NCBI RefSeq assembly: GCF_000472865.1
Contig: NZ_AXAP01000037.1
Coordinates: 1 to 64,000 of the forward strand
Length of the DNA stretch: 64,000 nucleotides
Reading direction: 5' to 3'
Source of the DNA: Bradyrhizobium elkanii WSM2783
Lineage (GTDB): Bacteria; Pseudomonadota; Alphaproteobacteria; Rhizobiales; Xanthobacteraceae
A program made the position numbers and the translations under genes. Positions 38,162 through 62,399 of the stretch are shown in pieces. The notes beneath the pieces are model-generated. The model was given only the letters and a program-made list of their open reading frames with translations. It made no database searches and was not told the origin of the DNA. Each line of letters opens with the position of its first letter. Position 1 is the first letter of the stretch.

Positions 38162-38269
38162 CGTCATTCCGGGGCACGCGCAGCGCGAGCCCGGAATCCA
38201 TTTCTCCGCCCGCGTATGTGGCTCGATGGATTCCGGGCTCGATGCTTCGCATCGCCCCGGAATGACGGG
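38162..38269. repeat. Dispersed palindromic repeat, family D
   Basis: The left arm CGTCATTCCGGGGC and the right arm GCCCCGGAATGACG are exact complements. Inner arms GAGCCCGGAATCCAT and ATGGATTCCGGGCTC are also exact complements. Confidence 0.8.
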
Positions 38270-38295
38270 GGGACGCATCGCGCAATCCTTTCCTC

Positions 38296-38381
38296 CGTCA
38301 TGGCCGGGCTTGACCCGGCCATCCACGTTGTCGCGGGCGCGTGGAAGGACGTGGATGCCCGGGTCAAGCCCGGGCATGACG
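38296..38381. repeat. Family B palindromic repeat
   Basis: It has the same arms as the copies at 2921 and 58817: TCATGGCCGGGCTTGACCCG at the left and GGTCAAGCCCGGGCATGA at the right. Confidence 0.8.
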
Positions 38382-38565
38382 GCGTCGTATCATTCGCGCG
38401 ATTTTCCTTAAGCCGATCAACGTGATTTGCTCTGTCCAGCCCTCGCGCAAAAAACATTCCGCTTCCGTCGTCGGGCAAATCAGTGATTTAACTCCGCGCG
38501 TCTCACCCGAATGAGGGGCGGCTCGCGATCGTCACGAACGTTGCGGTGAGATGCGGTGGACGTGA

Positions 38566-38922
38566 GTGTCACGACTGACGAGCGAGATACTCACGGACGG
38601 CGAAGTCGTGTGGTTCTGGCGCCCCGACGCTGGCGCTAAGTTTCTTGCGCGAAGCAAGTTCGCGCGAGAGGCGACGGTGGCAAGAAAGCCCGGTCACCGG
38701 GAAGAGCACGAAGGAAACCGTAACACCATCGCGCAGGGAAAGCCGGAATGCATCGGTTGAACCTGTGGTCCTACCCCCGTGCTTTTTGTTGCACGGGACC
38801 CATGGGTGCAACCAGCACCCGGCTTTCCCTGCGCCCTCTGTTCAATGAGAGGGTGAGACGAGATGCAAAGCTCGGGCGCAACGCGCCGCGAGAATGCGAA
38901 CTGCTGTTTCCTCGCACTCCAC
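38566..38922. ncRNA. Long dispersed element with nested hairpins, candidate structured RNA
   Basis: Many complementary segments lie in order. TTTCTTGC (38641-38648) pairs with GCAAGAAA (38680-38687) around GCGCGAA/TTCGCGC. CCCGGTCACCGGG is at 38689-38701. A perfect 16-base pair GCGCAGGGAAAGCCGG (38731-38746) with CCGGCTTTCCCTGCGC (38819-38834) encloses CCCGTGC/GCACGGG. CCCTCT/AGAGGG is at 38834-38853, and GGCGC/GCGCC at 38875-38887. I recall similar sequence recurring in Bradyrhizobium genomes, but cannot search. Whether it is transcribed, and on which strand, is unknown. Confidence 0.45.
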
Positions 38923-39021
38923 CGTCATGCCCGCGAAAGCGGCATCCAGTATCCGGCGGCCTCTCGGCTCAAGCTCTGCTGTCTCTGGAATACTGGATCG
39001 TCCGGTCAAGCCGGACGATGA
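38923..39021. repeat. Dispersed palindromic repeat, family E
   Basis: It begins CGTCATGCCCGCGAAAGCGG and ends CCGGTCAAGCCGGACGATGA. The inner arms CATCCAGTATCC and TACTGGATCG are near-complementary. Single copy in this window. Confidence 0.65.
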
Positions 39022-39062
39022 CAGCAGAGAGCTGTTTGACAATTGAATCAGAATTCTCCGCC

Positions 39063-39140
39063 CGTCATTGCGAGCGCAGCGAAGCAATCCATCGCGCCGC
39101 TTGTGGAGACATGGATTGCTTCGCTGCGCTCGCAATGACG
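39063..39140. repeat. Family C palindromic repeat
   Basis: CGTCATTGCGAGCGCAGCGA at the left is complementary to TCGCTGCGCTCGCAATGACG at the right, a perfect 20-base match. The inner pair is AGCAATCCAT/ATGGATTGCT. It is the cleanest copy of this family in the window. Confidence 0.85.
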
Positions 39141-39203
39141 TGGAGAGAGCGTGCCGATTGCCCACCCCACACAGTGATGGCGCTCACGCTAATGCTTCGC
39201 CCG

Positions 39204-40556
39204 TCACGACAGCCGCATCTCGAGCAGCCGGCGGCCTTCGCCCTTGAGCAGCTTCTTCACGGCGCTGGAGGCGATCACCTCGCCGTTGTTGGCGTAGGCT
39301 TCGTGGTTCTTCTCGATATCGTCGAGGCGATAGAGATAATTGACCATGATGCCGGCGGATTCGCGCAAGCCTTTCGGCGAGAGATCGCCGAGCCAATTGA
39401 TGCGCTCCAGCCGCGCGCCGTTGCCGAGGTGGAAGCGCGCCACCGAATCGATCAGCCGTCCCTTCGGCGTTCGCGCTTTCAGGAAATAATAGGCGGCGAG
39501 CGGCTCCAGCACGGTGCGGAGCTGCGCGGCCAGTTCGGCAATGTCGAACCAGTCGGGCTTGCCGAGCCCTTCGAGCAGCAGCCGATCCTCGTCGGAGAGC
39601 GGCGCGTCGCTCGCCTGCCTCAGCCATTGCATGAAGCCCGGCACCGGCGACAGCGTCACGAAGGTGTCGAGCTTCGGCAATTCGCGGCGCAATTCCTCGA
39701 CCACCTGCTTGATCAGGAAACTGCCGAAGGAGATGCCGCCGAGCCCGCGCTGGGTGTTGGAGATCGAATAGAACACGGCGGTGCGGGCGCGCTCGATCGG
39801 CACCGGCTCGCGCTGCTCGGCGAGCAGAGGTGCGATCGCGCCGGGGATCGTCTCGGTCAGCGCGACCTCGACGAAGATCAGCGGTTCGTCGTTCAGCGCC
39901 GGATGGAAGAACGCGTAGCAACGGCGATCGATGGGATCGATGCGGCGGCGCAAGTCGTTCCAGTCGCGGATCTCATGCACTGCCTCATAGCGAATGATCT
40001 TCTCCAGAATATTGGCCGGCGTCGACCAGTCTATCCTGCGCAGCACGAGAAATCCCCTGTTGAACCAAGAAGAGAGCAGATGGGTGACGTCGCGATCGAG
40101 CGACTCCAGGTCCTTGTTGCCTTTCATCAGGTTGAGCAGATCGGCGCGCATCGACACCAGTTCGCTGGTGCCGCCCGGCGCGCGGTTGAGCCGGCGGATC
40201 AGTTCCTGCCGGCGCGGCTCGGAGGCGAAATGCAAATCGCTGGCTTCGCCGTCGTCGGAACCCTTGCGCCAGGCCTCGATCGCCTGCATCAGCTTGGCGC
40301 GGTCAGGGCCGAAATCCCGGGAGAGCGTCTGGAAGAACGCCAGCCGCCCCGCGGCGTCGAGATGGTGATAGCGGTCGAGCACCTCGCGCGCCATGGCAGT
40401 GCCGGAGGCTTCGCCACGGCCCGAGAGCAGCGCCTCGCACAATTCAAGAAGCTCGGAGGCGTCCTGCTTCGTTTCCAACGAATTGCCTCGCCGGAGCAGC
40501 GTACGGCCGCGCTCGGAAATCGTTGCCAGCAGGTCGGAGAAAAAGGCATTGGCCAT
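39204..40556 (-). CDS. matA: Malonyl-CoA decarboxylase
   Basis: This 450-residue enzyme converts malonyl-CoA to acetyl-CoA. The N-terminal helical domain (about 1-150) is followed by the GNAT-like catalytic domain with VHEIRDWNDLRRRID, RRCYAFFHPALNDEPLIFVE, FYSISNTQRGLGGISFG and FHLGNGARLERINWL. The active-site Ser and His of the family fall in these last segments. It is cytoplasmic. No malonyl-CoA synthetase or malonate carrier gene is adjacent, unlike the rhizobial mat operon, so the symbol is by homology only. Confidence 0.93.
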   Translation of the reverse strand: MANAFFSDLLATISERGRTLLRRGNSLETKQDASELLELCEALLSGRGEASGTAMAREVLDRYHHLDAAGRLAFFQTLSRDFGPDRAKLMQAIEAWRKGSDDGEASDLHFASEPRRQELIRRLNRAPGGTSELVSMRADLLNLMKGNKDLESLDRDVTHLLSSWFNRGFLVLRRIDWSTPANILEKIIRYEAVHEIRDWNDLRRRIDPIDRRCYAFFHPALNDEPLIFVEVALTETIPGAIAPLLAEQREPVPIERARTAVFYSISNTQRGLGGISFGSFLIKQVVEELRRELPKLDTFVTLSPVPGFMQWLRQASDAPLSDEDRLLLEGLGKPDWFDIAELAAQLRTVLEPLAAYYFLKARTPKGRLIDSVARFHLGNGARLERINWLGDLSPKGLRESAGIMVNYLYRLDDIEKNHEAYANNGEVIASSAVKKLLKGEGRRLLEMRLS

Positions 40557-40662
40557 GGGAGGGATCGAATCCGGTTACACCGAACCTTACATAGGATCTG
40601 GGTTGCTGCCGACTATACTCAAGAACACCATTTTGTCATGACTTGCCAATGAAGTCTCGCGT

Positions 40663-61472: not shown

Positions 61473-62399
61473 ATGGCCAATATCCGCGTTCTTGCCACCG
61501 ATCTTGAATTTCCGGAAGGGCCGGTGGTGATGCCGGACGGATCGGTGGTGCTGGTCGAAATCCGCGGGAAGCGGTTGACGCGGGTCTATCCGGACGGGCG
61601 CAAGGAAGTGGTGGCGCAGATTCCCGGCGGCCCCAATGGCGCGGCGCTCGGACCCGACGGCAAGATGTACATCTGCAATAATGGCGGCTTTAGTTGGATC
61701 CCGACGCGCAACATGATCATGCCGGGGCCGCAGCCGGAAGACTATATCGGTGGCTCGATCCAGCGCGTCGATCTGCAGTCGGGCAAGGTCGAGACCGTCG
61801 TCGACAAATGCGGCGAGCATGCCTTAAGGGGACCGAACGACCTTGTCTTCGACAAGCATGGCGGGCTCTGGTTCTCCGATCTCGGCAAGCGCCGCGCCCG
61901 CGAGATGGATGTCGGCGCGTTCTACTACATCAAGCCCGGCATGAAGGAGATCGTCGAAGGCGTGCATGGTCTGCTGCCGGCCAACGGCATCGGCCTGTCG
62001 CCGGACGAGAACACGGTTTACATCGCCGAGACACCCACGGCGCGGCTGTGGGCCTACGATCTCTCCGCGCCCGGCACCGTCAAGCCGCGCGATGGGATCT
62101 ATCGCGGCGAACGCGGCAAGCCGATTGCCGGGCTCGGCGGCTACCAGATGTTCGATTCGCTCGCGGTGGAAGCCAGCGGCAATGTCTGCGTGGCGACGCT
62201 GGTCTCGGGCTGCATCTCCGTGATCGCGCCTGATGGTACCCTGGTCGAGCAGGTGCCGACCGGCGACCGCGTCACCACCAACATTGCCTTCGGCGGACCC
62301 GAGCTGAAGACCGCCTACATCACGCTGTCAGGCAAGGGCGAGCTGATCGCGATGGATTGGGCGCGGCCTGGCCTGCCGCTGAATTTTTTGAACAAGTGA
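61473..62399 (+). CDS. SMP-30/gluconolactonase-family lactonase
   Basis: This 308-residue six-bladed propeller enzyme hydrolyses a lactone. The metal-binding Glu is in LEFPEGPVVMPDG. Further features are GGPNGAALGPDGKMYICNNGG, RGPNDLVFDKHGGLWFSDLG (Asn ligand) and LLPANGIGLSPDENTVYIAET (Asn/Asp ligand). There is no signal peptide. ATG at 61473 follows GGGAGGATTC. The substrate could be a sugar-derived lactone, but no sugar operon surrounds it. Confidence 0.88.
   Translation: MANIRVLATDLEFPEGPVVMPDGSVVLVEIRGKRLTRVYPDGRKEVVAQIPGGPNGAALGPDGKMYICNNGGFSWIPTRNMIMPGPQPEDYIGGSIQRVDLQSGKVETVVDKCGEHALRGPNDLVFDKHGGLWFSDLGKRRAREMDVGAFYYIKPGMKEIVEGVHGLLPANGIGLSPDENTVYIAETPTARLWAYDLSAPGTVKPRDGIYRGERGKPIAGLGGYQMFDSLAVEASGNVCVATLVSGCISVIAPDGTLVEQVPTGDRVTTNIAFGGPELKTAYITLSGKGELIAMDWARPGLPLNFLNK

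Follow-up and report, generated by a model that had tools for sequence, protein, structure and literature searches.

The stretch of DNA considered here (64,000 nucleotides of the Bradyrhizobium elkanii WSM2783 genome, hereafter the window) carries at 38446-38892 what is apparently one copy of a dispersed family of non-coding folded RNAs of about 400 letters, whose modules are shuffled between copies. The limits follow cross-species similarity, which starts at 38446 in the longest matches and later in others and ends near 38899, and the end of the last stem at 38892; past about 38899 copies from the same genome diverge. The parts of the element, with the basis for each in brackets, are:

38446-38892, + strand, whole element, promoter-like region plus predicted folded RNA (cross-species similarity, last stem)
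38448-38492, + strand, promoter-like region (sequence motifs; counterpart promoters in distant homologues)
38448-38458, + strand, A-rich stretch within the promoter-like region
38462-38467, + strand, weak -35-like CTTCCG within the promoter-like region
38476-38483, + strand, conserved CAAATCAG within the promoter-like region
38486-38492, + strand, -10-like ATTTAAC within the promoter-like region
38499-38553, + strand, helix P1 (38499-38507 with 38545-38553) and its loop (predicted fold)
38552-38733, + strand, helix P2 (about 38552-38559 with 38726-38733), enclosing a central domain made of V1, P3 and V2 (predicted fold)
38561-38595, + strand, variable hairpin module V1 (alleles, pairing excess among same-genome copies)
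38597-38721, + strand, helix P3 domain (38597-38619 with 38702-38721), containing a hairpin at 38618-38637, V2 and a hairpin at 38675-38699 (predicted fold, pairing in homologues)
38639-38673, + strand, variable hairpin module V2 (alleles, pairing excess among same-genome copies)
38731-38834, + strand, helix P4 with inner hairpins 38775-38797 and 38804-38820 (complementarity, homologues)
38834-38853, + strand, hairpin P5, which is variable module V3, CCCTCT-loop-AGAGGG (alleles)
38871-38892, + strand, hairpin P6, which is variable module V4 and the final conserved stem (alleles, pairing excess)

The most conspicuous part is helix P4, described in a preliminary description of this DNA as a perfect 16-bp outer helix: GCGCAGGGAAAGCCGG at 38731-38746 is indeed fully complementary to 38819-38834, with 72 nt in between. 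The hairpin that this helix was said to enclose is real, except that there are two of them (38775-38797 and 38804-38820), and the further stems reported in order on both sides of it are present in the predicted fold. The boundaries first proposed, 38566-38922, have to be revised, as position 38566 falls within hairpin 38561-38595 and a start there omits both the 5' strands of two outer helices (38499-38507 and 38552-38559) and the promoter-like sequence at 38448-38492. A coding role was rejected: the open reading frames across the element are mechanical, and V2 alleles range from 15 to 35 nt without keeping to multiples of three. One mechanical frame of 634 aa (38748-40652, + strand) begins within the element and runs antisense to a likely real gene (39204-40556, - strand), and could be annotated in error as a gene. 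The element is flanked by four or more REP-like palindromes, identified by eye, at 38164-38270, 38296-38385, 38920-39035 and 39062-39140.

The 5' end of the RNA is predicted from the sequence to lie at P1 or just ahead of it. Immediately 5' of P1, two distant homologues from two genera (L183 and L185) have TTGACA-N16-TATATT, a near-consensus sigma70-type promoter, and two others (L180 and L181) have TTGACT-N17-TACACA; distant homologues such as L186 have no comparable site by eye. Among 95 main-family sequences, the -10 of the best-scoring site lies at -20 to -9 from P1 in 40, compared with 95 of 475 shuffled sequences, and the mean best promoter score is 7.00 versus 6.43 after shuffling. The corresponding site of the window copy is weak (CTTCCG / ATTTAA). 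Among the copies, the promoter-like region is preceded by one of at least three different modules with repeated CAAATCA words. In the window, the arms TGATTTGC and GCAAATCA frame the upstream module of this copy at 38423-38482, possibly a regulator site.

The predicted architecture is multi-branched, unlike a simple palindrome, and is specific to one strand. The folding energy of the RNA strand at 38494-38892 is -204.2 kcal/mol versus a mean of -160.5 for 100 shuffles, none of which is equally stable (z -8.79; opposite strand -4.89). In each of the 81 sequences compared, the sense strand folds more stably than the antisense, with a mean difference of 25.9 kcal/mol; this set was obtained by reducing 111 full-length hits to 87 of standard length and then removing near-duplicates. 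G-U cells are in excess of A-C cells, with 753 against 294 under the most permissive cut-off, 141 against 67 under the most stringent, and 125 against 76 for the WSM2783 copies. Part of this excess may be due to the structure having been chosen with an RNA model. Our best reading of these sequence comparisons is that selection preserves a folded RNA of the sense strand. Rfam gave no match in the whole window (4227 families at gathering score), and at E up to 5 two unrelated weak hits only in 38450-39000; on six homologue loci its hits were confined to the flanks, with none in the element. Beside the element copy at one locus of another genus (L148) there are two below-cut-off matches, one to WsnRNA46 (1221-1352, - strand, E 4.4e-6), which, as a guess, may be a REP, and one to cspA (534-940, - strand, E 3.4e-7).

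The folded-RNA reading of the preliminary description is supported by compensatory changes, by the strand-specific fold and by the position just 3' of promoter-like sequence. Covariation, which that description had proposed as a check, came out in part: there are compensatory changes across species and, in some helices, within the genome, but a stricter, tree-aware null (own implementation) on a sequence-only alignment of 81 sequences gave a much weaker signal, passing only 9 of 130 structure pairs at E<0.05. When all pairs were tested in the same 81 sequences, one structure pair and seven non-structure pairs passed. In an alignment of 54 homologues fitted to a covariance model with 39 modelled pairs, 94.9% of cells are paired versus 85.7% after shuffling and 42-56% in slid controls, and two-sided changes occur in 27 of the 39 pairs versus 11.7 (none of 500 shuffles was as good); since the alignment was fitted to the model, this result leans towards the structure. 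That set started from 60 rows, from which a stricter cut-off dropped five antisense self-matches and the 50-nt fragment L206 was left out; the 55 loci submitted gave 54 matches and L209 none. In these homologues 98.1% of the cells of helix P4 are paired, and of its 14 modelled pairs 10 show two-sided changes.

The within-genome evidence is less tied to phylogeny. Among 34 same-genome copies longer than 400 nt, the 69 variable pairs have 89.5% of cells paired versus 83.8% when permuted (maximum 84.9%). The excess comes from V1 (92.2 versus 72.7%), V2 (78.9 versus 62.7%), P6 (87.9 versus 76.9%) and one P3 hairpin (98.5 versus 92.2%); these 34 copies show no clear excess in the remainder of P3, in P4 (inner part included) or in P1, P2 and P5.

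The element is far from unique. The preliminary description was right in recalling related sequence in many Bradyrhizobium records, although it missed both the dispersed, multi-copy nature of the element and the reshuffling of its modules. The WSM2783 genome has about 50 dispersed copies, 47 of them retrieved and several cut by contig ends; a search of this genome returned 41 matches, two of which are pieces of one copy (40 of 103 candidates scored). The P4 arm occurs in it 54 times forward and 55 times in reverse at up to one mismatch, a few of these by chance, and three single occurrences (L078-L080) have no element around them. A DNA query matched 114 of 117 sampled genomes of the genus. 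Copies per genome were counted in 20 genomes with a covariance model, R1, of the P3-P4 part; the counts run from 0 to 93 and are upper figures, since they include some antisense matches to the same hairpin (for G105, two out of ten). They were 67, 35, 30, 45, 18 and 20 in the first six genomes, 17, 90, 61, 93 and 66 in the next five, and 0, 0, 0, 0, 2, 1, 7, 10 and 23 in nine further genomes, eight of them from the same genus and chosen for weak or no DNA matches and one from another genus. The complete 9.4 Mb genome G046 has no model match and a single weak DNA match (E 1.2e-4).

Two wider scans used stricter filters. The scan of the order matched 19 of 397 genomes (15 of the same genus, two of other genera of the family and two of other families, one of the last two, G335, being 85% complete with 4% contamination), and that of the class 3 of 385, the sole one from outside the genus having 5% contamination. 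Named hosts among the matches listed are mostly Bradyrhizobium, along with Tardiphaga, Rhodopseudomonas, Afipia and unnamed MAGs; no match to the element came from plasmid or phage collections. Some species have longer forms of 518-629 nt (L051, L052, L202, L212, L264, L276 and others, including named B. liaoningense, B. japonicum and B. yuanmingense records), with the additional sequence located in the V1 region in L051 and L052. Draft contigs start or end inside or at a copy both in WSM2783 (C20, C28, C153 and C154 of G000) and in another draft genome (C58, C65, C72, C80 and C83 of G347), so that draft assemblies may undercount the element.

Sites of the element turn over. The gene upstream of the window copy was found in 114 of 117 genomes, and among the best 30 loci compared the downstream gene was also found in 20, only two of which have the element: the WSM2783 genome itself and its near relative G080. 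The other ten of these 30 loci, one of them cut, have it at none. Even at the site shared with G080 (L083), the two genomes have different flanking REPs and different alleles of V1 and V2. The flank segments of 14 copies were further compared with G080, G072 and G046, giving 19 copy/locus pairs chosen among the returned loci, the rest being left out as other places. The element is present in 6 of 8 pairs in G080, 4 of 9 in G072 and 0 of 2 in G046, with three short loci that are probably cut by contig ends (L111, L117 and L136) counted as lacking it. Flank segments of three truncated copies had no match in these three genomes. No clean empty site was found for the 14 copies in them, so that the insertion step itself was not seen; at the absences L014, L016 and L022 the sequence has diverged too far for a junction to be read.

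The variable modules are highly diverse. Same-genome copies have 33 distinct V1 alleles in 37 copies, 32 V2 alleles in 42, 28 V3 (P5) alleles in 42 and 32 V4 (P6) alleles in 44, and folding z is below -1 in 97% of the alleles of V1, all of V2, 89% of V3 and 91% of V4. V1 and V2 alleles have very different sequences and lengths, and nearly all are still hairpins. No linkage was detected among the four modules in 31 complete same-genome copies (Mantel r 0.007-0.040, p 0.19-0.39) or between V1 class and V2 class in 36 (p 0.31), sample sizes at which weak linkage could be missed. We read the unlinked modules as a sign of frequent short-tract recombination among dispersed copies.

The ends of the copies, taken from the model hit in place of the true insertion ends, carry no transposon signature. 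In 37 copies the shared flank word averages 4.62 nt versus 4.59 between different copies, which gives no sign of target duplication, and the inverted end word has a mean of 4.76 and a maximum of 7. A MITE or other DNA transposon derivative was accordingly rejected, as these copies have neither terminal inverted repeats nor target-site duplications at the model-hit ends. Among the truncated copies of the WSM2783 genome, three lack the 5' part (L028, L071 and L072) and one clearly lacks the 3' part. In L072 the truncation point is at the P4 stem, and flank and stem make a new short palindrome.

Taken together, the sequence data lead us to favour, as reasonably probable, a transcribed, folded RNA gene of an accessory or selfish kind that has been spread and reshuffled at the DNA level. 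A full copy carries promoter-like sequence, and transcription starting just before P1 would yield an RNA about 400 nt in length (more in certain species) whose multi-domain fold is conserved. The copies, which occupy REP-rich intergenic DNA at places and in numbers that differ between species, would exchange segments, so that the four hairpin modules could reassort within one genome. Copying would take place at the DNA level, by recombination or gene conversion possibly aided by REP mobility, and not by reverse transcription. Its fold may let the RNA work in trans, serving either the spread of the element or some cell function. Given that the family is missing from some genomes and that copy number is so variable, an accessory or selfish role would be the most likely. 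One might go further and imagine a freely recombining population of dozens of ornate, trans-acting RNA genes, a protein-less, RNA-only selfish element that spreads at the DNA level via REP-rich sites while its hairpin modules reassort like alleles, although we regard this stronger version as unlikely.

A multi-copy regulatory or structural RNA that benefits the host, is maintained for its dosage and is homogenised by gene conversion deserves attention, if a rather doubtful prospect. Helices are maintained in paralogues and the element is near-universal in the sampled genus, but copy numbers vary widely, the window site is not conserved, and four of the nine further genomes, including the complete G046, have no model match. 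There is also some bias towards co-direction with replication. Of 252 copies listed for ten single-contig genomes (which are not all of their copies), 167 point with the fork, with the origin placed by parS and six genome lengths rounded, as do 341 of 605 genes sampled evenly from two of the ten; the difference is modest (pooled p=0.008), and GC skew in the two sampled genomes is broadly consistent with the parS origin. Taken singly, the two genomes show no significant difference chromosome-wide (p=0.06 and 0.32), and for the part near the origin p is 0.20 and 0.04.

The orientation bias would also suit a palindromic repeat of the REP/BIME kind that works as DNA, by way of cruciforms, supercoiling or bound protein, and for which the RNA does not matter; we think this improbable. 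Copies are intergenic, REPs are seen by eye around the element, and 15 of the 32 copies in the WSM2783 genome with both neighbours called lie between convergent genes (13 co-directional, 4 divergent). Elsewhere, however, the convergent setting accounts for just 8 of 22 and 10 of 35 copies in two sets from other genomes, the latter including some places twice. Against a DNA-level role there are also the strand asymmetry of the fold in all 81 sequences, the excess of G-U over A-C, the promoter-like sequence at a fixed place before P1 and the multi-branch architecture.

Still less probable, in our view, is a SINE-like retroelement whose RNA is reverse-transcribed, before insertion, by an enzyme encoded elsewhere (a group II intron protein, for example), with template switching shuffling the modules. 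The promoter-like 5' end, the structural constraint at the RNA level, the preponderance of 5' over 3' truncations and the lack of terminal repeats would all fit. Nevertheless, four complete genomes, G101, G364, G496 and G105, with 66, 45, 35 and 10 model matches, have no RVT_1, while it occurs six times in G046, with no model match, and 25 times in G017, with two; the other eight genomes searched have both RVT_1 and the element. Since many-copy genomes do without RVT_1, retrotransposition by a resident reverse transcriptase is disfavoured, and a resident enzyme of this family is not needed for many copies now; the comparison concerns present gene content, would miss reverse transcriptases outside RVT_1 and allows for past ones. 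A cis-acting leader, riboswitch, attenuator or 3'-UTR stabiliser of the adjoining gene is very improbable: many copies do follow a gene of the same orientation, but every relative orientation of the neighbours occurs, no protein family recurs beside the element (largest cluster 13 of 181 loci, own simple ORF caller) and the element has no Rfam match.

The favoured accessory or selfish RNA gene resembles several known systems. HEARO, the omega-RNA of IscB-type elements, is likewise a large structured, mobility-associated RNA in dispersed copies. Assignment to HEARO, which would call for an Rfam match and a linked IscB/TnpB-type gene, was rejected, with no Rfam match in the element and no protein family recurring when the neighbours at 181 loci were clustered. 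So was a group II intron or derivative, as none of the 4227 Rfam families reached its gathering score and the hits at E<=5 were weak and unrelated. We know of no high copy number with module reassortment in GOLLD, ROOL or OLE. These are large ornate bacterial RNAs (PMC12286853), and in this the element is like them, but it differs in having no Rfam match.

There are also the REPs of the genus. Br-REP1 and Br-REP2 of Bradyrhizobium japonicum USDA 110 are palindromes of about 20-40 nt that have been tied to 3'-UTR transcripts, Br-REP2 being said, with data not shown, to belong to a larger repeat (PMC5082802). They are repeated, intergenic, palindromic and found in the same genera, as the element is; unlike the element of about 400-450 bp, however, they are short. 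The Br-REP1 consensus has no match in the whole window at up to three mismatches. The last 14 nt of Br-REP2 occur, at up to two mismatches, at 38164-38177, 38252-38265 and 61717-61730, all outside 38446-38892 and in a number that does not exceed chance (1.37 expected). Membership in either family was rejected, as the consensus palindrome is absent within 38446-38892. The GTAG- and CGTC-tagged REPs occur in Bradyrhizobium and R. palustris, mostly outside genes, and are single palindromes of 20-40 bp with the tag at one end (PMC3733652), whereas the element has about 400-450 bp, several domains and promoter-like sequence; its multi-domain nature and length rule out membership. To judge by eye, these tagged REPs are probably the repeats that flank the element here.

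The novelty of the element is provisional, as the RNA may be known in Madhugiri 2012, reportedly the main paper on Bradyrhizobium sRNAs, or elsewhere. In searches of an open-licence library, with PMC4842269 and PMC3091675 among the sources, the same-genus REPs came up (PMC5082802, PMC3733652) and no description of the element did, and a term search of the main text of PMC2267715 found none.

On this account, a multi-domain RNA that has no Rfam family and reaches about 90 copies in a genome is present in nearly all sampled genomes of an agriculturally important genus, and it would rank among the more abundant unassigned structured RNAs in bacteria. There is a practical side, in that several contigs of draft assemblies end in the element. 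More broadly, the family would be a natural system for studying how a non-coding repeat lacking its own gene spreads, and by what means helices persist in paralogous RNA genes that recombine.
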